64,000 nt of DNA from Conchocele bisecta (taxonomy: Eukaryota; Mollusca; Bivalvia; Lucinida; Thyasiridae): assembly GCA_029237695.1 (NCBI GenBank), contig CM055266.1:11115805-11179804 (forward strand), read 5' to 3'. The first letter of the stretch is position 1. Each line of letters opens with the position of its first letter. The translations under genes were made by a program, and so were the position numbers. Positions 1 to 32,985 of this stretch are shown piece after piece. The notes under the pieces are model-generated. The model was not told the DNA's origin. It worked only from the letters and a program-made list of their open reading frames with translations, and did not search any database.

Positions 1-2391
1 TTGACAGAATTTTGTAATTGGTTGTTTTCAAAACAACATAAAGGTGCTACAGCTATTGCCCATAATTTCAAAGCGTATGATGGTCAGTTCATACTTCATC
101 ATCTCATTGAAAAGGGGATGTTACAACCGAAGGTAATAATGAACGGTAATAACATCATGGTTATGGAAGCTGGAGGTATACGATTGATTGATTCATATAA
201 TTTCATAAATTCAGGATTGTCAAAATTTCCAGAAACCTTTGAATTGAAAGAAATGGCTAAGGGGTATTTTCCACATTGGGCAAATACTGATAAATTTACC
301 GCTTATGTTGGCCCCTACGTTGACGTTTCTTATTATAAACCAGATTCAATGGGGATAACTGTTAGGGAAAAGTTTTTATCATGGTATAACGAACGTGTGG
401 AAAACAACGATTGTTTCAATTTCAAACAAGAAATGGAAAAAAATTGTCGATCGGATGTAGATATTTTGAGACGTGGTTGTGGAGAATTCAGGAAGGTATT
501 CATGGAATATGGGGGTGGGGGTATAGATCCGTTTCTAGAAGCCAGTACAATCGCTGATGCATGTAACAAAGTTTGGCGTAACAAATATATGCCAAGTAAT
601 CAGATCGGAATTATTTCAAGCAGAGATCCGATTAAACGCAAATTTTCAATGAAAGGTATTCGATGGATACAAAGTATTGCACACGAAAACAATATTGTTA
701 TCCAACATGCAAAAAATGGTGGTGAATACCAAATTGGTCCTTATACTGTAGATGGGTTTCACAAAGAATCAAATACTATCTATGAGTTTCTCGGGGACCT
801 ATGGCATGGTTGTCCTAAATGTTACCCAAATCGTAATCTAAAAAACCCTATAAATGGTGAAACAATGCAAAATTTATATTCACAAACATTTGAAAGATTG
901 GAATATTTCAGTGTAAGTGGTTACAAAATTCACACTATGTGGGAACATGAGTTTGATTTAAAAATGAAAACTGATAAAGAATACAAAAAGATGATCGAAC
1001 AATTCTTTCCAAACTGTGATCCGATTGAACCTAGGGAAGGATTGTTTGGTGGACGTTGTAATGCTATAAAAATTAAATATGATATTGAAGAAAATTCAGA
1101 TGATGAAATCAAATATATTGATATTTGTTCATTGTATCCATTTGTATGTAAACACAAAGAATATCCGATAGGACACCCTGATATTTTAACAAAAGAAAAT
1201 ATTGATGTAGAAAACATCCGACAGTATGAGGGTTTAATAAAATGTAAAGTTCTCCCTCCGGACAATCTATTTCATCCTGTGTTACCAACACATTGTAATA
1301 ACAAACTCATGTTTCCATTATGTAGAACATGTGCAGAAGAAAGTTCTACAAAGTGTACACATACAATTGAAGAAAGAGCTTTGATTGGTACATGGGTGTC
1401 AATAGAATTGTTTAAAGCATTGGACTGTGGCTATACGTTGTTAGACGTATACGAAGTATGGCATTTTTCGGAAAAAGCTAATGATTTTTTCTCGGGGTAT
1501 GTGGACAATTTTCTTAAAATCAAACAAGAAGCAAGTGGTTATCCAGGATGGTGTATAACAGAAAAAGATAAAGAAACATTTGTTAAGGACTATGAAGAAG
1601 CTGAAGGTATTTGTCTTGATCCATCAAACATACAAACAAATACTGGCCGTAGAGCATTTGCCAAGATTATGTTAAATTGCTTATGGGGTAAATTGGCACA
1701 ACGTGAAATCATGACACAAACGGAATACATCAATAATCCTTCAAAATATTTTGATTTGATTTCAAATACATGTATAATGGTAAAACACGTAGAAATATTT
1801 GATAATGAATGTCCATTCATATTGGTTAACTATGAAACTAGACTTGAACACATTGAATCCCATGCAACATCAAACGTTGTAGTGGGATCATATGTAACAG
1901 CATATGCAAGACTTGAACTATACAGTGTTTTGGAAAAGTTAAATGAACGTGTGTTGTATTTCGATACAGACAGTTGTATGTACATACACAAGCAGAATTT
2001 ATGGAATCCGCCCATAATCAATAGTAGGCTTGGTAAATGGACTGATGAAGAACCAGGAAATAAAATAATAAGTTTTATGGTGATAGGACCAAAGAGTTAT
2101 GCATATAAGTTGATAACAAAAGCTGGGGAAATGAAATCCAAATGCAAAGTTAAAGGACTGACACTCGATTACAACACAAGTCAAGTGGTTAACTTTGAAA
2201 CGTATGTTCAATGTGCAGAGGACCGAAGTACCGAAGTGAAAGTTGTGTATGCATGTAAAATCAGGAGACATGCAAACAGAACAGTAACGAGTGAATGTCA
2301 AAGCAAGACATTTAGGTCTGTGTACACAAAACGTGTCATTGTTGACAATTTCAATACTGTACCATACGGTTACAACACATTGAGACTTTGA
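1..2391 (+). CDS. PolB: Protein-primed-type family-B DNA polymerase of a Maverick/Polinton-like element (5' partial)
   Basis: The frame is open from base 1, where the codon is TTG, so the start lies outside the window; 796 residues are visible. The protein would replicate the linear genome of a virus-like transposon. Seen, in window residue numbers: an exonuclease II-like HNFKAYD (21-27); an exo III-like CRSDVDIL (149-156), where the Tyr usual just before the Cys is Asn148; a restriction-endonuclease-like insert with Asp251, YEF 261-263 and WHGCPKC (268-274); polymerase motif A DICSLYP (374-380); motif B K555-x3-N559 with G563; motif C YFDTDS (653-658); and KSY plus KVKGL (698-720) of the palm/thumb. 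Exo I lies off the left edge. The long A-to-B spacing fits a TPR2-type insert of protein-primed enzymes. The frame is intact to its stop. No capsid, integrase or ATPase gene is in view, so the exact lineage (Polinton, adintovirus-like) is open. Confidence 0.93.
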   Translation: MTEFCNWLFSKQHKGATAIAHNFKAYDGQFILHHLIEKGMLQPKVIMNGNNIMVMEAGGIRLIDSYNFINSGLSKFPETFELKEMAKGYFPHWANTDKFTAYVGPYVDVSYYKPDSMGITVREKFLSWYNERVENNDCFNFKQEMEKNCRSDVDILRRGCGEFRKVFMEYGGGGIDPFLEASTIADACNKVWRNKYMPSNQIGIISSRDPIKRKFSMKGIRWIQSIAHENNIVIQHAKNGGEYQIGPYTVDGFHKESNTIYEFLGDLWHGCPKCYPNRNLKNPINGETMQNLYSQTFERLEYFSVSGYKIHTMWEHEFDLKMKTDKEYKKMIEQFFPNCDPIEPREGLFGGRCNAIKIKYDIEENSDDEIKYIDICSLYPFVCKHKEYPIGHPDILTKENIDVENIRQYEGLIKCKVLPPDNLFHPVLPTHCNNKLMFPLCRTCAEESSTKCTHTIEERALIGTWVSIELFKALDCGYTLLDVYEVWHFSEKANDFFSGYVDNFLKIKQEASGYPGWCITEKDKETFVKDYEEAEGICLDPSNIQTNTGRRAFAKIMLNCLWGKLAQREIMTQTEYINNPSKYFDLISNTCIMVKHVEIFDNECPFILVNYETRLEHIESHATSNVVVGSYVTAYARLELYSVLEKLNERVLYFDTDSCMYIHKQNLWNPPIINSRLGKWTDEEPGNKIISFMVIGPKSYAYKLITKAGEMKSKCKVKGLTLDYNTSQVVNFETYVQCAEDRSTEVKVVYACKIRRHANRTVTSECQSKTFRSVYTKRVIVDNFNTVPYGYNTLRL

Positions 2392-2430
2392 TTGAATATA
2401 CACTATGTATTACATCTTGTAAATATATTG

Positions 2431-2460
2431 TTGTTCAATAAAATATTGTTAAATAAACAA
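2431..2460 (+). terminator. Poly(A) signals of the polymerase gene
   Basis: Two AATAAA hexamers (2437-2442 and 2452-2457) lie about 45-65 bases after the polymerase stop. The surrounding TTGTTCAATAAAATATT recurs almost unchanged after the decayed gene at 4034-4050, so the element appears to reuse one 3'-end module for its larger genes. Confidence 0.7.
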
Positions 2461-2472
2461 GCTTAACTGTAA

Positions 2473-2565
2473 AAACGTGTTTACAACACGCTTTCTGATT
2501 GGACGAAAATCTGAAAAAATGACTAAACTACAGTAATAGGTCAATCCGATTGATGGGTATAAAAG
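2473..2565 (+). promoter_or_regulatory. Cassette 1 promoter block with inverted CCAAT box and TATA box
   Basis: This roughly 90-bp block is repeated at 4262-4350. Shared parts in order: GTTTACAA, CGCTTTCTGATTGG (inverted CCAAT at 2498-2502), CGAAAATCTGAAAA, TGACTAAACTA, TAGGTCAATCC, and TATAAAAG at 2558-2565. ATTGG lies exactly 60 bp upstream of the TATA start in both copies. The TATA box is 43 bases before ATG 2601, so the mRNA leader should be very short. Confidence 0.8.
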
Positions 2566-2600
2566 CATGTGCACATACTTCACATGTTTCATTAAGCACG

Positions 2601-2840
2601 ATGTCTAAGCCTACAGAAAACTGGGGTAATGATGAGAGAGCTAATGAACAACCACAGCAAGAAGACTGGGATGAGGAGATCCGAAGAGCTCCGACACCAT
2701 CATTTGTGATTCCTGGAAAACCCAGCAAAATGTCTACACACAGATTTCTCTTAACATGTGCAAGCTGTGGATCACGGGACTGTGGTGGGCATAAAAAATA
2801 CATTGAAAGAGTGAACAAGTATGATAAACAGCAAACTTGA
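2601..2840 (+). CDS. Small Cys/His-motif protein, cassette 1 (79 aa, unknown function)
   Basis: The in-frame ATG at 2550 is not used here because it lies upstream of the TATA box at 2558; ATG 2601 is the first start after it. The protein has a hydrophilic acidic N-terminal half rich in Gln, Glu, Asp and Trp (residues 5-30), a Pro-containing linker, then a compact possible zinc site Cys53-x2-Cys56-x4-Cys61-x2-His64, and a basic tail. There is no signal peptide or membrane segment, so a soluble, perhaps DNA- or protein-binding factor is plausible. I do not recognise a family. It has its own promoter and a histone-type 3' end, features shared with the gene at 4409-4621, although the two proteins are not clearly similar in sequence. 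Confidence 0.7.
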   Translation: MSKPTENWGNDERANEQPQQEDWDEEIRRAPTPSFVIPGKPSKMSTHRFLLTCASCGSRDCGGHKKYIERVNKYDKQQT

Positions 2841-2860
2841 ATTAGACGATCAAGACAAAA

Positions 2861-2902
2861 GGCCCTTTTCAGGGCCAATACAAATATTTAGAAAAGAAAA
2901 AA
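2861..2902 (+). terminator. Histone-type mRNA 3' end: stem-loop plus purine-rich downstream element
   Basis: GGCCCTTTTCAGGGCC at 2861-2876 forms a 6-bp stem with a TTTC loop, 20 bases after the stop codon. It fits the metazoan replication-dependent histone consensus GGYYYTHHTHARRRCC at every position. It is preceded by CAAAA and followed by AATACA, a suitable CA cleavage context, then by AGAAAAGAAAAAA at about 2891-2902, where a U7-binding histone downstream element would sit. No AATAAA lies near. Processing by SLBP and U7 snRNP is inferred from known histone biology. Confidence 0.82.
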
Positions 2903-2920
2903 CTTATAATCAGTTGTACC

Positions 2921-2928
2921 TATATAAA
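2921..2928 (+). promoter_or_regulatory. TATA-like box of the decayed middle gene
   Basis: TATATAAA lies about 95 bases before the first ATG pair (3023) of the broken reading frame. The CCAAT-containing block of the two cassettes is absent, so this gene would be controlled differently. Confidence 0.4.
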
Positions 2929-3022
2929 CGTTTTACATTTTGTCATAAGCCATTATATTCAAGGTATTCGCTCTAGAAACAACAAATATTATACAGTACT
3001 TTTAGATAATAAACAAATAAAA

Positions 3023-4010
3023 ATGATGGTCATAATTGAGAATTGTGGTTACAAAACGATGTTTGTCTGATAAAGAAATCCCGAGAAATACCCCGACAAA
3101 GAAAGACAATACATGACACATTCAATAAATGTATGGTTGAACAACTTCAATTATTAATTAAAAAAGAAGTAAATGACAATTGTTATGGATGTCAAGTTGA
3201 ACATCCAAGTCAAGTACGACATCAACTGTGCTTATTCACAGATCAAGATGAACAAACAGATTTATTCTATATTGCCAGCTCTACAGAAATTAGATCCTTA
3301 TAAAATTATGGAAGAATGGTATCCAATTCTCAAAGATATGACATTGGACGATCAAGAGAAATTGGAAGCATACAGACTGTGGGTACAAATTAAAAACAAA
3401 ATCAGTTTTAGACCCAATGAATCGTGGTTGGAACAGTTGAAGAAACAAGTCAAACAATCCTGGAAATAGATTGATATTAAAGACTATAAAAGTAGGAACG
3501 GAATATAACTGAATCATTCTATGAATAGACACAGTTGAAGAAACAATGAATCCTCTGACAGATCTATTAAATCATATGGCAATCAGGAAACCAGTAACAA
3601 TGAATCCTCTGACAGATCTATTAAATCACATAGCATACAGGAAAGCATTGATACTTTGCTTTCAAACTAAAAGTATCAAATGAACAATATCTTACAACCG
3701 GGATCATCAAGGATGAATTAGAGAAAATAGAGATGTTTGATGAGTTCAAGGAAGCCCTATTAGTAACGACAGGGTTCTTCAAAGATTCAAGGATTAAAGT
3801 AGACAATTAACATTTGAACAATGGAGAAACGAAGTTGTTGAAAATGACAATATTGTGAATTTCTTATTTAGACGCTGTAAGAGAGAGATTGTACCAATGG
3901 AAATAGTACAGATTAGTGAGAATGAATCAATGTGTGTGTGTACCCATTGTTCACGCTTCATGGACAGTGATCACGATACATGGACAGAGATCATGCCTCT
4001 TGAATGTTAA
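3023..4010 (+). pseudogene. Decayed element gene with a CYGC...HPSQ...H motif, several frameshifts
   Basis: Coding-like sequence moves between frames, so the gene appears broken. Frame 1 (about 3043-3280) holds DNCYGCQVEHPSQ with a downstream His/Cys pair, a motif I associate with uncharacterised proteins of cnidarian and mollusc virus-like elements. Frame 2 continues with ILPALQKLDP and ends at 3469. Frame 3 has an 18-residue unit beginning MNPLTDLLNH, twice in tandem, and stops at about 3680. Frame 1 resumes at 3670-3810, and frame 3 again at 3807-4010 with CVCTHCSRFMD near the end, a possible zinc site. At least three frame changes are needed. Alternatively these are several tiny overlapping genes, which I think less likely. 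A poly(A) signal follows. Confidence 0.6.
3543..3644 (+). repeat. 54-bp in-frame tandem duplication inside the decayed gene
   Basis: Two copies start at 3543 and 3597 and share AATGAATCCTCTGACAG and most of the following bases. The 54-bp spacing equals 18 codons, so the duplication preserved the frame and may predate the frameshifts. Confidence 0.75.
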
Positions 4011-4033
4011 ACATACATGTTGTAAAATATGTT

Positions 4034-4050
4034 ATTGTTCAATAAAATAT
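4034..4050 (+). terminator. Poly(A) signal after the decayed gene
   Basis: AATAAA at 4041-4046 lies in TTGTTCAATAAAATATT, the same context as after the polymerase gene. Confidence 0.65.
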
Positions 4051-4261
4051 TATTAAAACTTTACATGTTTCGTATTCAATTTTACCCACCATAAATTGAA
4101 AAATACCAATATATTGATTTACAATCAATATTTATTTTCATTAACTTTTGTCAATATTAGAGTTGTCAGAAGTGGATGAAAAATATTTCTAGGATATTTT
4201 CATATGTATTTGATAATATTATTATATACAGGAACAGTACACCCCTAGGATATCACAAAAC

Positions 4262-4350
4262 GCGTTTACAAGGCGCTTTCTGATTGGTCGAAAATCTGAA
4301 AATTGACTAAACTATCAAAAGTAGGTCAATCCTTCTGATGTGTATAAAAG
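4262..4350 (+). promoter_or_regulatory. Cassette 2 promoter block with inverted CCAAT box and TATA box
   Basis: This is the second copy of the block at 2473-2565. ATTGG is at 4283-4287 and TATAAAAG at 4343-4350, the same 60-bp spacing. GTTTACAA, GCGCTTTCTGATTGG, CGAAAATCTGAAAA, TGACTAAACTA and TAGGTCAATCC are retained. TATA to ATG is 66 bases. The 3' half, with an oligo(A) run after TATA, differs from cassette 1. Confidence 0.8.
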
Positions 4351-4408
4351 TAAAAAACATACAGCTATATTTCATTAGTCATTCAACTGTTCAACCAACT
4401 ACATAATA

Positions 4409-4621
4409 ATGCAGAAGAACGGGGAATGCTCTATGTGCGGTGAACACTGTTACATAGAGTGTAGAAAATGTTATGCAGTGTTGAACACTCACGGGAAAGA
4501 ACACAATTGTCCAGATCTCGACGCAGGCTTTTTTGAAGAAGAGGACCTTAAAGACCTCGAAATTTGTGAGGCGTGCGAGTTAGTCGTCGACTGTATGTGG
4601 AGTAAACTGAACACTACATAG
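4409..4621 (+). CDS. Small Cys-rich, probably zinc-binding protein, cassette 2 (70 aa, unknown function)
   Basis: An intact short frame from the first ATG after the TATA box. It has ten Cys and three His in 70 residues: C7-x2-C10, C14, C18-x2-C21, H28, H32-x-C34, then an acidic stretch (residues 36-51), then C53-x2-C56 and C62. Paired CxxC knuckles around an acidic linker suggest two small zinc ribbons or one treble-clef-like fold. No signal peptide or membrane helix is seen, so it is likely intracellular. It shares promoter architecture and histone-type 3' end with the 2601-2840 gene. I cannot assign a family or a function. Confidence 0.72.
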   Translation: MQKNGECSMCGEHCYIECRKCYAVLNTHGKEHNCPDLDAGFFEEEDLKDLEICEACELVVDCMWSKLNTT

Positions 4622-4637
4622 TTTACTAAAAGACAAC

Positions 4638-4674
4638 AGCCCTTTTCAGGGCTATACACTTTCTCAAGAAATGA
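4638..4674 (+). terminator. Histone-type mRNA 3' end, cassette 2
   Basis: AGCCCTTTTCAGGGCT at 4638-4653 keeps the 6-bp stem and TTTC loop. Relative to cassette 1 the outer G-C pair is changed to A-T on both sides, a compensatory change. It starts 16 bases after the stop. ATACA follows directly, as in cassette 1, then CAAGAAATGA at 4665-4674, close to the CAAGAAAGA downstream element of sea-urchin histone genes. No AATAAA is near. Confidence 0.8.
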
Positions 4675-4683
4675 ATACCTTAC

Positions 4684-5024
4684 ATACTGCTCTTATTGGT
4701 TCAGGGTGACACTATAGCGTAATACAAGAAGTTTACACCCCGGATAAAATTCACGAATCTCCATCAAAATGGTTCAGGGGTGCCACTATGGCGTGGTTTT
4801 ATACCAGTATAGAGTAATACAAGAAGTTACCAGCCCCTGATAAAATGGTTCAGGGTGCCACTATAGCGTGATACAAGAAGTTTCCATCCCCGGATAAAAT
4901 TCACGAATACAAGAAGTTTCCACCCTGATAAAATTCACGAATCTCCATCAAAATGCTTCAGGGGTGCCACTATGGCGTGGTTTTATACCACTATAGAGTA
5001 ATACAAGAAGTTACCACCCCTGAT
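4684..5024 (+). repeat. Subterminal tandem repeats of the virus-like element
   Basis: Irregular units combine TGCCACTATGGCGTGG, GTAATACAAGAAGTT, CCACCCCTGATAAAA and TTCACGAATCTCCATCAAA in changing order and length. The first of these also forms the arms of the adjoining hairpin, which ties the array to the element end. No coding potential. Confidence 0.65.
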
Positions 5025-5165
5025 AATGGGAGTAATAAGGGGTGCCACCTATGGCGTGGTTTTTTAACATGCGTTTTTTACATAGACAACCGGTGCAAGG
5101 GTAAAATTGTCTATGTAAAAAACACATGTTAAAAAACCACGCCATAGTGGCACCCATTACTACTC
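5025..5165. repeat. Long hairpin at the right end of the element
   Basis: Two arms of about 50 bp, GTGCCACCTATGGCGTGG...TACATAGACAA and its inverse, flank an 18-20-bp loop around 5090-5110. The outer bases GAGTAATAAGG and CCCATTACTACTC are near-complementary too. It may be the right terminus or a nested terminal repeat; the left terminus is outside the window, so this cannot be tested here. Confidence 0.55.
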
Positions 5166-5170
5166 TTAGC

Positions 5171-5528
5171 TAATAATTCCAGCACAAAAATATTTACACA
5201 ATTCCCTAACATTTGATTGGCCCGTAGCAAGTCTCTGTCCAAAATATATATCCCAGTAAACTCCCACGCCGAACTACTTTCCGTAACCGTGAGGCACAGT
5301 TAAAATAATTATTAAGAAAACGGAAAATAAACATATTTTCTTGATGAATTTATTTAAAATGCTGGAATTATAAGGAATGAATGGCCTTTTTGTGGAATTT
5401 ATCGGGGATATAAACTTGGAAAAGTCGCGGGAATACTGGACGAGGCCTTCCGGCCTTCGTCCAGTATTCCCGCGACTTTTCCAATTTTATATCCCGATAA
5501 ATTCCACAAAAAGGCCATTCATTCCTAT
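5171..5528 (-). mobile_element. Hairpin MITE, family GGAATGAATGGCC, copy 1
   Basis: The core 5371-5528 is a near-perfect hairpin with arms starting GGAATGAATGGCCTTTTTG and a tip around CGAGGCCTTCCGGCCTTCG. A 200-bp arm ending in TGCTGGAATTAT adjoins it. A second copy lies at 49962-50313 in the opposite orientation, so both read with the host paralog next to them. It could supply an AATAAA (5349-5354, minus) to the gene ending at 5692. Confidence 0.7.
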
Positions 5529-5586
5529 ACAAAATCCCATGGGTAGTCTCAAGTATGCGCACACATGAAACCCATGATCCACACTA

Positions 5587-5666
5587 GTCTTCACTGTCCA
5601 AGTCGTCTTCAATGTCCAAGTCGTCTTCAAGTCTTCAATGTCCAAGTCGTCTTCAATGTCCAAGGT
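5587..5666. repeat. 18-bp minisatellite just past the stop codon of the first Shisa/CYYR1-like gene
   Basis: Units of CAATGTCCAAGTCGTCTT occur about four times, one truncated. The array begins some 25 bases beyond the stop codon (5692-5694, minus) and so probably lies in the 3' UTR. Confidence 0.6.
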
Positions 5667-5691
5667 CCCGTTTTCTCAGTCCGTGTTGCAT

Positions 5692-5882
5692 TTACTGTGC
5701 GGGTTGCTGGTTGGGTGGCTGTTGGGCGGGCTGGCCGGGTGCCTGCTGGGCGGGCTGGGCGGGTGGTGGGTAGGCGGGATCGTTGTATATGGCCTGGTAG
5801 GCGGGCGGTGGGTACATCGGGGGTGGTACGCCGGGGCCACCCACGGGCTGATTCGGACCAGTATATCCCGGGATAACGTGAT
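5692..5882 (-). CDS. Shisa/CYYR1-like (STMC6-type) membrane adaptor 1, exon 3: PPxY tail
   Basis: Last coding exon of the minus-strand gene spanning 5692-20184. The acceptor CATTTTAG precedes 5882; the exon opens in phase 1 and ends at TAA 5692-5694. It encodes 62 residues very rich in Pro, Gln, Ala and Tyr, with two PPxY motifs (PPMY and PPAY) of the type bound by WW domains of Nedd4-family ligases. The end DPAYPPP resembles DPAYPTG in the second paralog (51288-51469). The donor of the preceding exon (CAAC|GTGAGT at 7418/7417) has the matching phase, giving a 1.5-kb intron. Three exons total 534 nt, a 177-residue product. Base composition is far more GC-rich than the surroundings. Confidence 0.75.
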
Positions 5883-6032
5883 CTAAAATGAACGAAAATC
5901 CATGGTAACCAACAAGTCATCGCCAACGAATCATTTAACTATTACTGATATGTTAATTATGCATCCAATCCGACCGTCACAATATGGTTTTCTGGCCCGT
6001 GGTGTTTTTGTTCTAAAATTATGAAAATTACT

Positions 6033-6102
6033 TGCAAAAGTGCAGATCCAGATGAGACGGCTTGTCACGAGCCGGCTCATCTGGATCTGCACTGTTTGCA
6101 AA
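6033..6102. repeat. Hairpin repeat GTGCAGATCCAGATGAG
   Basis: Inverted arms TTGCAAAAGTGCAGATCCAG and CTGGATCTGCACTGTTTGCAA surround CGGCTTGTCACGAGCCG. The family recurs at 59218-59290, and in diverged form at 9945-9985, 44025-44090 and 55650-55735. Lies in intron 2 of the 5692-20184 gene. Confidence 0.7.
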
Positions 6103-6150
6103 TACCGCTGTAGCGGGTTGTCGGGTTCAAATGGCTAATAGCTAAATTAA

Positions 6151-6220
6151 AATGTTATTTTTCAACGCTTGCCATTTATACATATAATATATAAATGGCA
6201 AGCGTTGAAAAATAATATTG
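6151..6220. repeat. 70-bp near-perfect palindrome
   Basis: AATGTTATTTTTCAACGCTT and its inverse flank an AT-only centre. It could extrude as a cruciform. Lies in intron 2 of the first adaptor gene. Confidence 0.7.
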
Positions 6221-6499
6221 TGAATTCAAATTAAAATGTCCGAAAACTAGCAATAACAATAGTATATGTTCATGTTTTGTGTAGACGCTTCTTATTACAA
6301 GAAAAAACGTTCTAACAATTGAACTAATTGAACTAAGCTTCTGATCCTTCTAATGACGTTTATTTATAACTTGATGATGTCAACGTCAAAACACCAATCT
6401 TTTGTCGCGCGTTTAAGAATTGAATTCAGGAGGAGTAAAGTTTGATAATCTGACAAAAATATAGCGCATAATACAAATACGTAAGTATGGTTATTATGT

Positions 6500-6905
6500 C
6501 AACCGATGAATTTCGCACTACTTTCTGTTCCCAGTTTTTCTACCGACGAACTTTTGGGTACTAAACACATTAAATCTAAAAAATATTTAATTGTAAGTAC
6601 TTTTTCATCAATAACGAAAAATTCACCCTCCCCAAAAAAATGTATTTCATGATATTCCATCAAATATTGATTTAATTTCGAAAAAACGATTTTTCTATGG
6701 GAATTTAACATGGGGGCTAAAAATAGATTTGTTTAAATACTTTTTTATTTGTGGACCGATTTTCAAAACCGAATTTCATCAACTAATTTTTTTTGGGGAC
6801 GGTGACTTTTTTTGTTATTGATAAAAAAGTACTTACTTTTAAATATGTTTTATATTTAATGTATTTAACAGCCAACATTTTGTCGGCAGCAAAACGTGGA
6901 ACACA
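6500..6905. mobile_element. Foldback repeat, family TGCCGACAAA...TTTGTCGGCAGC, copy 1
   Basis: The left end CTACCGACGAACTTTTGGGT and right end CATTTTGTCGGCAGCAAAA are inverted relatives, with inverted internal segments around AAATATTTAATTGTAAGTAC. Related copies are at 17735-18235 and 54111-54450. No coding potential; the ORF-like stretch is low-complexity. Confidence 0.6.
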
Positions 6906-7010
6906 CAGTAGGTATTATGACACATGCGTTATATCACTTTCATGAAATGGGTTACAACGCGACATTATACGGGTTTCATGCCAGAACTCTCAAGTCTACA
7001 ATCGCAGTCA

Positions 7011-7075: not shown

Positions 7076-7189
7076 ATAGCAACCTGTGTATATCTTTCAC
7101 AGACTATCAACGTTTCTGACCATCTATTAACGATACCAACTCGCAAACAAGCAATTTGAGTATCTGAGCCTGAGCTGTAGCACAGCTCA

Positions 7190-7395
7190 TGCTCAGTCAA
7201 TCAAGCTGCTTGATTTCCAGTACAATGTTCAAATGTTTCGAAATAAAGATATTGACAAATGTTGACAAGCAATTTTATTGTCTGAGCTTGAGTTAAAGTA
7301 CAGCTAAGTCTCGGCCAATCAAGCTGCTTGATTTCAAGCACAACATTCAAGTATTTAGAAATAAACAAATAGATAAATGGTGGCAAACTTAGCGC
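7190..7395. repeat. Repeat family CAATCAAGCTGCTTGATT, copy 1
   Basis: Two tandem blocks of CAATCAAGCTGCTTGATTTC followed by CAAGTATTT and GAAATAAA. Relatives occur at 51815-51990 and 57905-58130, where the ending GATTAGCGCAGGCGGTAAT matches 7388-7406. Its edge touches the donor site of the exon at 7418-7693. Confidence 0.55.
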
Positions 7396-7417
7396 AGGCG
7401 GTAATATTACAACTCAC

Positions 7418-7693
7418 GTTGTTGTTGCTGCTGTATCGCAGGCGTCGTTACCATGGTGACCTGTGGTGCCGGCCTCACTACCTGCTTTGCCTTCTGTTGT
7501 CGCTTATAGAAGTATGACGCGATCACGAAGATGACGGCGAGGACAAAGATGATGCCGAAGACGGAGCTGACGATAATGCCGGCGCCGACACTGCAGCAAT
7601 GGTAGTTAGTGCTGTACGCGTTGCCACAGCAACCCCAGGTACACTCAAGGTGCTCGTAGTAGTACCAGTTGTAGCAGCGGACGCCATGGACTC
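7418..7693 (-). CDS. Shisa/CYYR1-like (STMC6-type) membrane adaptor 1, exon 2: Cys-rich ectodomain and transmembrane helix
   Basis: Minus-strand exon between acceptor CATACAG (just above 7693) and donor GTGAGT (7417 downward), phase 1 on both sides. It encodes the six-cysteine core: a CYNWYYY start, LEC, WGCCG, then HCC. This is followed directly by a hydrophobic helix of about 23 residues beginning VGAGIIVSSVFGIIFVLAVI, a basic stop-transfer YKRQQKAK, and a Gln-rich cytosolic stretch. This Cys spacing with two CC pairs plus one helix is the hallmark of Shisa/CYYR1/VOPP1-like adaptors. An in-frame reading through the donor would stop three codons later, so an unspliced short form is possible. 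The homologous exon is 49521-49784. Confidence 0.82.
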
Positions 7694-7734
7694 CTGTATG
7701 GTAACATACAAGAAACACAATTCAGGGATTCCGC

Positions 7735-11254: not shown

Positions 11255-12450
11255 GCTGATGGTGGTCGCCAGACAGGATAAGTTTGTTTTCTGTGAGTAT
11301 TCCGGTTTCAACCCAAATTAAGAAACATGCAGACGCCTCCATCCACGCCGACTACAATTGTTCTCGCGTTTGTTTGTAATTGTTATATACATATATAAAT
11401 AAAGTTTAAAAGAAATATTAGCATTATGATTACATAATACTGATATTGTTATGTGTTATCTAAAAAATATCGGTCGTATGGTTATTTAGTTTCAAATGTC
11501 ATTTCACAAGTCGTCCATATAATATATTATAAAAATCATAAATGCAATATGCCCATTTGTATAAAAATAATCGACAAAATTACTACGTATTTCCTTGAAG
11601 GAAACCGAAGAAAAAAAAACAACTATCTGAACCACTATGAAAACAACTGTACAATTCTGCCACGCATATCCAACATTAAAATTGTGAGCCGTAAAGCGTA
11701 CGGTTATAAATAGGACAACTTAATGCAATGGCGCAACAATTCCAAGTGTCAAAATCCGACGTGACGTTGGTAAATTTATGCGTAACTTTGCGACGTCATT
11801 TTCAGCCTTTCATGACGTTTCATGACGTTGTCATTAAGGCTGGTTTTCACAGAGCGCGGCCCATATATATTATATATGGGCCGCGTTCTGTGAAAACCAG
11901 CCTTAATGACAAAATTTTCGATTTGCACTTTTTTACATTTTTGGATGCAGACACCTTTCAAAAACAATATGCTGAAAAGAAAATGCAAATATGTTTCATA
12001 GTTTTTGTTTTATCTGACTGTTTGTAGCACCATGTCAATCACGCAAGGAAAAAATAGTAACGTAATCGAGAAAATGACGTTATTGAAACGCTGACGTTTG
12101 TACAATGCAACACAACAGCCTACAGTAGAAATTCGTGCTCATAGACTCATTGACTGTGCTTGCTGTAAACTGTATTTGCTGATAAGTTGCACTAAATGTA
12201 TCTACAAGTGTTAATAGTATGTATACTATCAAACATTGAACAGAATAAAACTATGATATGTACATGTAGTGAACAAACCAAACGCACCACTATCGATTTT
12301 AAATATATAACTAGCCGACATGTGACTTCGTAATTTGCTACCATCGCCAACTATGATTATATACATGTACCGTCAGAAAGATACATTGTAATTATTGGAG
12401 GATTTAGTTCAGAATATAATTGACGTCATTTACGTAACAGTTAATTGTGA
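11255..12450. repeat. Element X, most complete copy (about 1.2 kb)
   Basis: The left half (11255-11870) matches 15470-16065 and the right half (11872-12450) matches 7833-8400. The junction is the palindrome GCGGCCCATATATATTATATATGGGCCGCG flanked by inverted GGCTGGTTTTCACAGA. CRE-like TGACGT motifs are frequent. Several short ORFs exist but none is conserved in frame, so it is probably a non-autonomous transposon. Confidence 0.6.
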
Positions 12451-18246: not shown

Positions 18247-18516
18247 TACGGAGCCCCGCAGGGACGTATAATTCTTTCTTTTTTATTAATTCGTTGCCAC
18301 GAATTAACAATCCGTTCCCTCAATTTAACAATTCGTTCCCACGAATTAACAAATCCATTCCCACGAATTAGCAATTCGTTCCCTCAGTTTAACAATTCGT
18401 TCCCACGAAATAACAATTCGTTCCCATGGGAACGAATTGTTAATTCGTGGGAACGAATTGTTATATCGTGGGAACGAATTAATAAAAAATGTCCATGTCC
18501 CCTGCGGCGCCCCGTA
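18247..18516. mobile_element. 21-bp-unit foldback element, type TTCGTGGGAACGAA, copy 1
   Basis: Inverted ends TACGGAGCCCCGCAGGGAC and GTCCCCTGCGGCGCCCCGTA enclose an array of 21-bp units, each the 14-bp imperfect palindrome TTCGTGGGAACGAA plus a 7-bp spacer such as TTGTTAA, switching orientation midway (CCATGGGAACG near 18424). Perfect 6-bp flanking repeats CTATAC (18241-18246 and 18517-18522) show transposition. ORFs inside are products of the repeat. Confidence 0.8.
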
Positions 18517-22291: not shown

Positions 22292-22563
22292 TACGGAAGC
22301 CCATTAGGGCCACTTCACTTTTTTTAATTTCAAGAAAAGATCTTGAAAATTCAAGAAAAGGACTTGAAAATTGAAGAAAACATCTTGAAAACAAGATGTT
22401 TTCTTGAATTTTCAAGCCCTTTTCTTGAATTTTCAAGATCTTTTCTTGAATTTTCAAGAAAAGATCTTGAAAATTCAAGAAAACAACTTGAAAATTCAAG
22501 AAAACATCTCGAAAATTCAAGAAAAGATAAAAAAAAGTGAAGTGGCCCTAATGGGCTTCCGTA
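22292..22563. mobile_element. 21-bp-unit foldback element, type CTTGAAAATTCAAG, copy 1
   Basis: Inverted ends TACGGAAGCCCATTAGGGCC and GGCCCTAATGGGCTTCCGTA enclose 21-bp units, each the 14-bp palindrome CTTGAAAATTCAAG plus a 7-bp spacer such as AAAAGAT. Spacer orientation switches twice. Flanks GTCTAGAC and GTCTAGTC look like a duplicated target with one change. Repeat-encoded ORFs in both strands are not genes. Confidence 0.8.
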
Positions 22564-30034: not shown

Positions 30035-30469
30035 TACGGAAGCCCATTAGGGCCACTTCACTTTTTGTTACCTTTTCTTGAATTTTCAAGATGTTTTCTT
30101 GAATTTTCAAGATGTTTTCTTGAATTTTCAAGTTCTTTTCTTGAATTTTCAATTTTCAAGTTCTTTTCTTGAATTTTCAAGATCTTTTCTTGAAAATTCA
30201 AGAAAAGATCTTGAAAATTCAAGAAAAGAACTTGAAAATTTTAAAACAAGATGTTTTCTTGAATTTTCAAATTCTTTTCTTCAATTTTCAAGATGTTTTC
30301 TTGTTCTTTTCTTGAATTTTCAAGATGTTTTCTTGTTCTTTTCTAGATCTTTTCTTGAACATTCAAGAAAAGATCTTGAAAATTCAAGAAAAGAACTTGA
30401 AAATTCAAGAAAACATCTTGAACAAATGGAAATTAAAAAAACGTGAAGTGGCCCTAATGGGCTTCCGTA
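30035..30469. mobile_element. 21-bp-unit foldback element, type CTTGAAAATTCAAG, copy 2
   Basis: Same ends as 22292-22563, with perfect 6-bp flanking repeats CCATCG (30029-30034 and 30470-30475). The interior has several orientation switches and truncated units. Confidence 0.8.
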
Positions 30470-32009: not shown

Positions 32010-32985
32010 CATAATTTGTATTTTCAGGTCGCTGTTGCAGCAGGGTCGGTCAATTCTTTGAGGAAGACTGTCCAACGCGCAAAGAATGGGAAGACACCAA
32101 AATAACCTGCCACAATCAGCGACATTCCTGTACCACTGCCTTCGGACTACAACACCTACCACGGCGATGAATTCGTGGTGTATGACAACGAGTCGTCGGA
32201 GAATCGGATACTACTGTTCGCCACCAATGACGGGCTCAACCTCCTCAACAGCGCTGATACCTGGTTTATGGAGGTTCTCACTGCGCTACTGGACGTCTGT
32301 CTCCAACGCGACATACGACCCAACCCACAACGCATTGTCGCTGACTACGAGATGGCCATACACAATGCGGTCAGGGCTGTTCTGGACTCCAGCATCCATG
32401 TCCAGGGCTGTTTCTACCATCTGACACAATCGACATGGCGCCATGTTCAATCTGATGGTCTACAGGCTGTGTATTCAACCGACGAAGACGTACGCCAGTT
32501 CTGCGGCATGGTGGATGGGCTCGCTTCCCTTCCCGTGGATGACGTTAAGATCGGCATGGAGGCTCTCAAGGACGTCGCGAACCCAAGGACTCGTCGACTA
32601 CTTCGACACCACCTACATCTCGGGTGGATGGAACTATTAAATTCCGGCGTACTGCTCCAAGGTTCAGTCCCGTAATATGGAACGTCCACGAGGCCACACT
32701 TCAGGATTGCCACAGGACCAAAAATCAGTGCGAATGATGGAACCATTGATTTCGTCATCTCGTGGGACACGATAATCCGTCATTGTGGACAGTGATCGTG
32801 TGCTTAATGAAAGATGCGGGTTTGGTAGAGGCTGACATTCTGAGAGTCGATCGAGGAGAACCAGCATCTAAGCGAACGAAGAAGGCTACCATATTTCACC
32901 AGAAGAAGATGAAGACCCTGTGTGAGCAGTACAATCGTGGTGAAAAGACAATGGCGGAATCCCAGAAATTGAGGGGGTTTCGTCC
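32010..32985 (+). pseudogene. MULE-type (Mutator-like) transposase remnant
   Basis: The longest frame (32175-32675) includes a MULE-type core: VADYE with the second catalytic Asp, then GCFYHL with the C-x2-H motif. Just before it, NSADTWF is joined directly to MEVLTALLD (about 32265-32275). In MULE transposases this is where the first catalytic Asp (DGTF-type motif) and some 40-50 residues should lie, so an in-frame deletion removed an essential residue. Coding-like sequence continues in other frames to about 32975 (VGHDNPSLWTVI, KTLCEQYNRGEKTM), showing frameshifts, and upstream (32010-32175) with a stop. The enzyme cannot be active. It lies between the two adaptor genes. Confidence 0.75.

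Follow-up and report, generated by a model that had tools for sequence, protein, structure and literature searches.

Histone-type 3' ends on five small genes of a Maverick/Polinton element in the bivalve Conchocele bisecta

The element and its right end

The window analyzed here is a stretch of 64,000 nucleotides (C2:11115805-11179804) of the 1.89-Gb assembly of Conchocele bisecta. The right end of an 18,340-bp element (C2:11102629-11120968) falls in this window, and three stretches to the left of the window (L025, L026, and L027) were analyzed separately. The features of the element in the window are as follows:

118-2391, plus strand: PolB open frame, 757 aa from the first ATG in the window (PF03175, E 1.8e-34)
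2431-2447, plus strand: poly(A)-signal module after PolB, TTGTTCAATAAAATATT, which the element carries in four identical copies
2471-2565, plus strand: promoter module 1, with CTGATTGG at 2495 and TAGGTCAATCC...GTATAAAAG at 2537-2565
2601-2840, plus strand: gene 1, 79 aa, Cys-rich
2861-2876, plus strand: histone-type stem-loop 1, GGCCCTTTTCAGGGCC (Rfam RF00032 match spans 2856-2901)
2893-2901, plus strand: possible U7 site of gene 1, AAAGAAAAA, weak on its own
4035-4051, plus strand: the poly(A)-signal module again, the second of its two copies in the window, following short, apparently decayed frames
4256-4350, plus strand: promoter module 2, with CTGATTGG at 4280 and TAGGTCAATCC...GTATAAAAG at 4322-4350
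4409-4621, plus strand: gene 2, 70 aa, Cys-rich
4638-4653, plus strand: histone-type stem-loop 2, AGCCCTTTTCAGGGCT (Rfam RF00032 match spans 4633-4677)
4665-4673, plus strand: possible U7 site of gene 2, CAAGAAATG, weak on its own
4699-5164: right terminal inverted repeat, 466 bp; partner at L027 825-1291, with 2 mismatches and 1 gap
5165-5170: target-site duplication CTTAGC; the other copy is directly left of the element

The PolB gene, which is of the protein-primed family B type, starts to the left of the window and occupies more than one frame in this copy (with frames also in L025). Its relatives include the PolB of a coral adintovirus. The left stretches encode an integrase (rve, PF00665, E 5.4e-12, cut-off passed), an adenovirus-type protease (PF00770, 23.2 bits, cut-off 21.3), and an A32-like ATPase that scores slightly under its cut-off (PF04665, 22.0 bits, cut-off 22.8). 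The sole other frame there with a family above cut-off is a zinc-knuckle frame (PF00098). No capsid family was found in Pfam for the two frames tested at the expected place, a region that is split over several frames. The terminal inverted repeats (467 and 466 bp) end in AGTAGTAATGGG and CCCATTACTACT, and the 6-bp target duplication flanks the element on both sides. Given that PolB, integrase, protease, inverted repeats, and target duplication are all present, the element is a Maverick/Polinton, as the earlier note had recognized. It resembles Maverick/Polintons and adintoviruses in PolB, rve integrase, adenovirus-type protease, and (just under the Pfam cut-off) A32-like ATPase, as well as in its terminal inverted repeats ending AG...CT and its 6-bp duplication. 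This copy is damaged, with PolB and the presumed capsid-gene region broken into several frames, and the near-identical inverted repeats suggest that the insertion was recent.

Genes 1 and 2 have the promoter module of about 95 bases in common, and their coding parts show no convincing likeness. Relatives of gene 1 (P0121 and P0122) are 130-133 aa long, its predicted fold is poor (mean pLDDT 57.5), and a database search returned no relative of gene 2. For many copies of gene 1 the open frame has about 140 residues, near the length of P0121 and P0122, and the window gene looks like a shorter form. By eye, the proteins of gene 1, P0121, P0122, and L002:8042-8311 (a distant element, see below) have in common a motif like E[DN]W[DK][DE]E.

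Histone-type ends and the two kinds of genes

In animals, the messages of replication-dependent histone genes are known to be formed at their 3' ends through a stem-loop followed by a U7 site. The earlier note had described ends of this type on both small genes of the window, and positions and letters bear it out: each gene is followed by a 6-bp stem with a TTTC loop, 20 nt (gene 1) and 16 nt (gene 2) past the stop, with ATACA after the stem. No other perfect 6-bp Watson-Crick stem with a TTTC loop occurs in the 64-kb window on either strand. Scored with the Rfam histone 3' model (RF00032, cut-off 34 bits), stem 1 is above the cut-off (34.8 bits, E 2.4e-6) and stem 2 under it (31.3 bits, E 5e-5). 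The statement that stem 1 fits the histone consensus at every position was right as to the fold, which the Rfam model accepts, and wrong at one pair, which is C-G where the consensus has U-A. The purine-rich stretch proposed as a U7 site is present after both stems, AAAGAAAAA and CAAGAAATG each having 7 of the 9 letters of CAAGAAAGA, the core of the U7 site. This match is weak alone, because about 4% of random 32-mers from the window score as well. Finally, neither gene was said to have AATAAA. That is true up to the stem, and for gene 2 within 400 nt of the stop (as it is for gene A, below), but gene 1 has AATAAA at 168, 176, and 284 nt past its stop, all beyond the stem.

The two ends are real, but the count of two was too small, as three more lie to the left of the window. 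They are listed here with the poly(A)-signal module at the ends of other genes:

L025 675-720, minus strand: gene-A stem (gene A, 90 aa), 31 nt past the stop; RF00032 39.0 bits, above cut-off
L025 1549-1594, plus strand: gene-B stem (gene B, 54 aa), 48 nt past the stop; RF00032 36.3 bits, above cut-off
L026 3206-3251, minus strand: gene-C stem (gene C, 173 aa); RF00032 match weak, 25.4 bits, E 0.0012
window:2431-2447, window:4035-4051, L025:1688-1704 (minus strand), L027:1514-1530 (minus strand): the four copies of TTGTTCAATAAAATATT, a poly(A)-signal module at gene ends

Histone-type ends thus follow five small genes (1, 2, A, B, and C) on both strands of one element. The RF00032 cut-off is passed by three of the five (34.8, 39.0, and 36.3 bits) and missed by two (31.3 and 25.4 bits). 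The gene-C stem stands 151 nt past the stop, behind an A-rich stretch containing AATAAA. For none of the five genes did Pfam return a histone family at the thresholds used. The original observation is confirmed and, with the three further ends and with two copies of a shared promoter module in the window, is larger than first described.

The stem genes also differ from their neighbors upstream. The promoter module TAGGTCAATCCNNNTGATGNGTATAAAAG precedes genes 1, 2, A, and C with no mismatch (gene B has no module) and occurs nowhere else at up to five mismatches in window 1-7000, L025, L026, L027, L002, and L003. In genes 1, 2, and A, CTGATTGG, the inverted CCAAT box (NF-Y type), stands with its neighboring letters exactly upstream of TAGGTCAATCCNNNTGATGNGTATAAAAG. 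Among the 12 other listed frames, none is preceded by the promoter module, and none has the stem letters within 400 nt past its stop (231 nt for one frame). Dealt at random to 17 frames, four promoter copies would all fall on stem genes with a probability of 0.002; this figure is a description and not a test, because the same pattern could arise without selection if whole cassettes were duplicated within the element. A second upstream box, TATAGACGTCACGATGTAACGATAGTATA, is present in two identical copies (L025:570 and L025:2562), one of them directly before PolB.

The 17-letter module TTGTTCAATAAAATATT, which contains AATAAA, occurs in four exact copies: after PolB, at window 4035, after a 148-aa frame in L025, and after the protease. 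It is important to note that AATAAA alone does not separate the two gene classes, since it is found within 400 nt past the stop of three of the five stem genes (1, B, and C) as well as 10 of the 12 other frames. In gene C it precedes the stem, and the small gene of L002 has it downstream too. Backup polyadenylation of the stem genes is therefore possible.

Stems in copies, in host histone genes, and in a distant element

Among six ends (the five here and that of L002), compensated changes are seen at two pairs, and 97.2% of cells pair, compared with 92.6% in shuffles (13 of 500 shuffles were as high; six sequences are few). Most of the stem changes between genes are compensated, and in the gene-C stem of this copy one of the six pairs fails to form. 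In a set of 81 stems, drawn from the 30 genome loci described below with a filter of at least five pairs and with overlapping loci counted, GGCCCT/AGGGCC, GGTCCT/AGGACC, and GGCTCT/AGAGCC with a TTTC loop account for 43, 14, and 7.

For gene 1, conservation could be followed in 70 copies picked by protein and not by stem (30 with the highest scores and 40 of the 44 with the lowest among 150 scored matches, from 444 candidates, the middle 76 being outside the sample). The earlier note had named copies in other bivalves that keep the gene and lack the stem as evidence against its reading. In this genome most of the sampled copies keep both: 57 of the 70 have a letter-perfect stem and 60 form six pairs (three via G-U). 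Still, 10 of the 70 do not, and the stem has been lost in some copies. Divergence is 0.037 in the stem, 0.012 in the 5' flank, 0.035 between stop and stem, and 0.055 in the coding part, rising past the stem to 0.058 (+1 to +25) and 0.071 (+26 to +60). The contrast between stem and neighbors is modest, as expected of copies that have been decaying since insertion. Of 19 gene-B rows, 14 form six pairs (divergence 0.025 in the stem, 0.095 at +26 to +60, and 0.049 in the coding part). Six pairs form in 17 of 21 gene-C rows, where divergence is 0.053 in the stem, 0.166 between stop and stem, 0.055 in the coding part, and 0.050 at +1 to +25; the gene-C stem is thus no more conserved than the coding part or the first 25 bases after it. 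In these two sets the rows exceed the copies, given that some loci overlap (L038/L057, L043/L049, L030/L039, and L037/L046); one gene-C row was excluded as too short, and two more were excluded because they had no C-terminal match.

Searching the genome with RF00032 gave 75 matches, 68 of them above the cut-off and one of these being gene A of this element; the 75 are those scored out of 257,327 first-look candidates and are no census. Thirty loci were returned. Protein matches to gene A, B, C, or 2 were found at 24, and one more (L036) has the tail of gene A only (by eye), so that 25 of the 30 belong to this element family (21 distinct copies after overlaps). The other five appear to be histone loci of the host; H4 is present at three, one is H2A-like by eye (L028), and one has a 43% H4-like match (L032). 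Because most of the loci belong to the element family, counting histone genes by RF00032 would mislead in this genome.

The host H4 genes have a stem with a TTTT loop (the element stems have TTTC) and CAAGAAAGA downstream, and on this evidence the host uses the stem-loop route for its own H4 genes. A search for the host U7 RNA found none among 65 scored of 358,179 candidates, with the controls silent as well. We compared the 32 nt after each stem with the host histone ends and counted the shuffles that were as good. There were none in 2000 for gene 1 and gene B, and 1 in 2000 for a gene at L031. The likeness is weak for gene 2 (30/2000) and gene A (32/2000) and absent for gene C (389/2000) and for L002, which comes from another host (239/2000). 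The gene-B end, ACA-ATATTTTCCAGAAAGAAAC, is nearly the host H4 end, ACATATATTTTCAAGAAAGAAAC. Upstream there is no such likeness: CTGATTGG is absent from the 300 bases before host H4, and the best alignments of this region to the element modules are short. These observations give no support to the idea that the element captured an entire histone gene together with its promoter.

A PolB search of prokaryote assemblies returned two stray contigs, L002 and L003. The first is 8.9 kb long, was binned with a Bacteroidia MAG, and encodes fragments of PolB (the best segment being 37% identical) as well as an rve integrase that weakly matches a chromodomain. Its small C2H2 gene has a histone end 28 nt past the stop (RF00032 35.8 bits, TTAT loop), the only match reported in the 2.9 Mb of that MAG (150 of 547 candidates scored). 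As L002 was fetched by its polymerase alone, this stem is an independent test. The CTGATTGG box also occurs upstream of the C2H2 gene, with a score of 27 against promoter 1 and 32 against promoter 2 (6/1000 and 1/1000 shuffles as good, respectively; a different region of L002 scored higher against promoter 1). L002 encodes, in addition, a TATA-binding-protein homologue (7189-7695, minus strand; PF00352, E 1.2e-27).

Other searches gave no further example. The partial contig L003 has no RF00032 match at E up to 1, PolB scans of viral contigs returned no relative, and six distant viral loci (partial contigs, from a wider PolB alignment) have no histone match at the cut-off. Among viral contigs, eight contain the stem letters, and the seven of these scanned with Rfam (all but L017) stay under the histone cut-off; seven contain the promoter letters, none with a histone match. 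The contig L001 looks by eye like phage sequence with an intergenic hairpin.

Proposed expression of the small genes

The sequence itself gives the element, the stems and their recurrence, the shared promoter, and the likeness of some ends to host ends. Processing and timing are inferred from the action of this signal on histone genes, as are, in turn, the absence of poly(A) and the roles that the proteins may have. We read the locus as an endogenous Polinton with two kinds of gene ends, the small genes of which are processed by SLBP and U7 and expressed in S phase, and give this reading a probability of roughly 0.78. Each of the five small genes closes with a histone-type stem-loop and then a putative U7-like site, and four start from the repeated CCAAT/TATA promoter module; the other genes have no stem, and four gene ends, including those of PolB and the protease, carry the identical AATAAA module. 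Host SLBP would bind the stem, and host U7 snRNP would cut the transcript a few bases past it. The resulting messages would lack poly(A) and be made and stable during host DNA replication, and the element would in this way make its small proteins in S phase, a time at which its own polymerase can be active as well. As far as sequence can test it, the interpretation offered in the earlier note is supported.

A histone 3' end could also have been acquired once and copied within the element, with the stem now idle and downstream poly(A) signals in use. The AATAAA downstream of genes 1 and B and of the small L002 gene, like that ahead of the gene-C stem, would fit such a history, as would the modest constraint on the stem within the family and the gene-B end that is nearly that of host H4. 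However, the five ends differ around the stem while each keeps the stem, with compensated pairs; AATAAA is missing from the 400 nt past the stops of genes 2 and A; a distant element carries such an end after a small gene that is unrelated; and host H4 does not have the promoter module of the element. We consider an idle relic unlikely.

Polintons are kin of virophages, and the hairpins might act in some other way, either as poly(A) signals of the kind used by Mimivirus and Sputnik or as DNA signals for replication or packaging. The accessible parts of one paper describe hairpin poly(A) signals at gene ends in Mimivirus and its virophage Sputnik, at 16 genes in the latter (PMC6723459). As far as that account goes, the likeness lies in the hairpins at gene ends and in a virus related to Polintons, but those hairpins signal polyadenylation in a giant-virus system of the cytoplasm, whereas the element sequence matches the histone route of the nucleus. 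Its letters, flanks, and spacing specifically fit the histone model, the stem has a single orientation after stops on both strands, and some downstream parts are like host histone ends, all of which makes another action quite improbable. Hairpins arising by chance can be set aside for practical purposes. Such letters are indeed present in eight viral contigs, but Rfam scans of seven of them (all but L017) stayed below the histone cut-off, and in the present case five hairpins follow small genes of one element; the L002 end, fetched through the polymerase, the two L025 ends, and the gene-1 copies in practice refute this explanation.

The ends of the element genes agree with replication-dependent histone 3' ends in the six-bp stem, four-base loop, short distance from the stop, and downstream purine-rich site, in the flanks AAAC and ACA/ACC of several element genes, and in the Rfam cut-off, passed by three of the five ends and by that of L002. 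Unlike histone genes, the element genes encode no histones, their loops are TTTC (TTAT in L002) and not the TTTT of host H4, and their promoter module differs from that of host H4. Some human histone genes have a U7 site overlapping a poly(A) signal, so that both routes are possible, according to the available portion of PMC9756948. The AATAAA below some element stems suggests both routes here too, although in a mobile element.

As far as the accessible text of the sources describes Maverick/Polintons and adintoviruses, histone-type ends on five small genes set this element apart. No paper on such ends in Polintons or viruses was found among the literature matches listed, and word searches of the available parts of PMC11071296, PMC8363768, PMC11071308, and PMC6723459 gave no passage on them. 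The 'oncoid' class of small proteins of animal DNA viruses is, in the part of PMC11071296 at hand, defined by short linear motifs. The small accessory proteins of the element, outside its core genes, resemble that class as it is described there but are tied to it by no motif or fold in this analysis, and the gene-1 model is poor.

A virus-like element that ends its small genes with the histone hairpin suggests that these genes are tied to the phase in which the host copies its DNA. If true, the histone 3'-end route can be taken over by a virus-like element for a gene set. This would offer a testable account of the way Polintons fit their expression to the replication of host DNA, and would explain how their small genes might escape RNA-seq based on poly(A) selection. 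It is about an even bet that animal Polintons and adintoviruses more generally have S-phase-gated small regulatory genes (a CCAAT/TATA promoter plus a histone 3' end) set apart from polyadenylated replication and virion genes, as an old code common to elements whose polymerases are about 37% identical.

Some minor features of the window lie to the right of the element. Segments at 5694-5886 and about 7420-7690 (minus strand) look by eye like exons of a Shisa-like host membrane protein, for which Pfam gave no support, and a MULE transposase-like fragment at 32268-32675 (plus strand; PF10551, 24.3 bits) is under the cut-off. Long hairpin-forming inverted repeats occur at 11833-11907, 18374-18483, 22395-22508, and 30151-30240, all four with sub-threshold matches to microRNA families on both strands.
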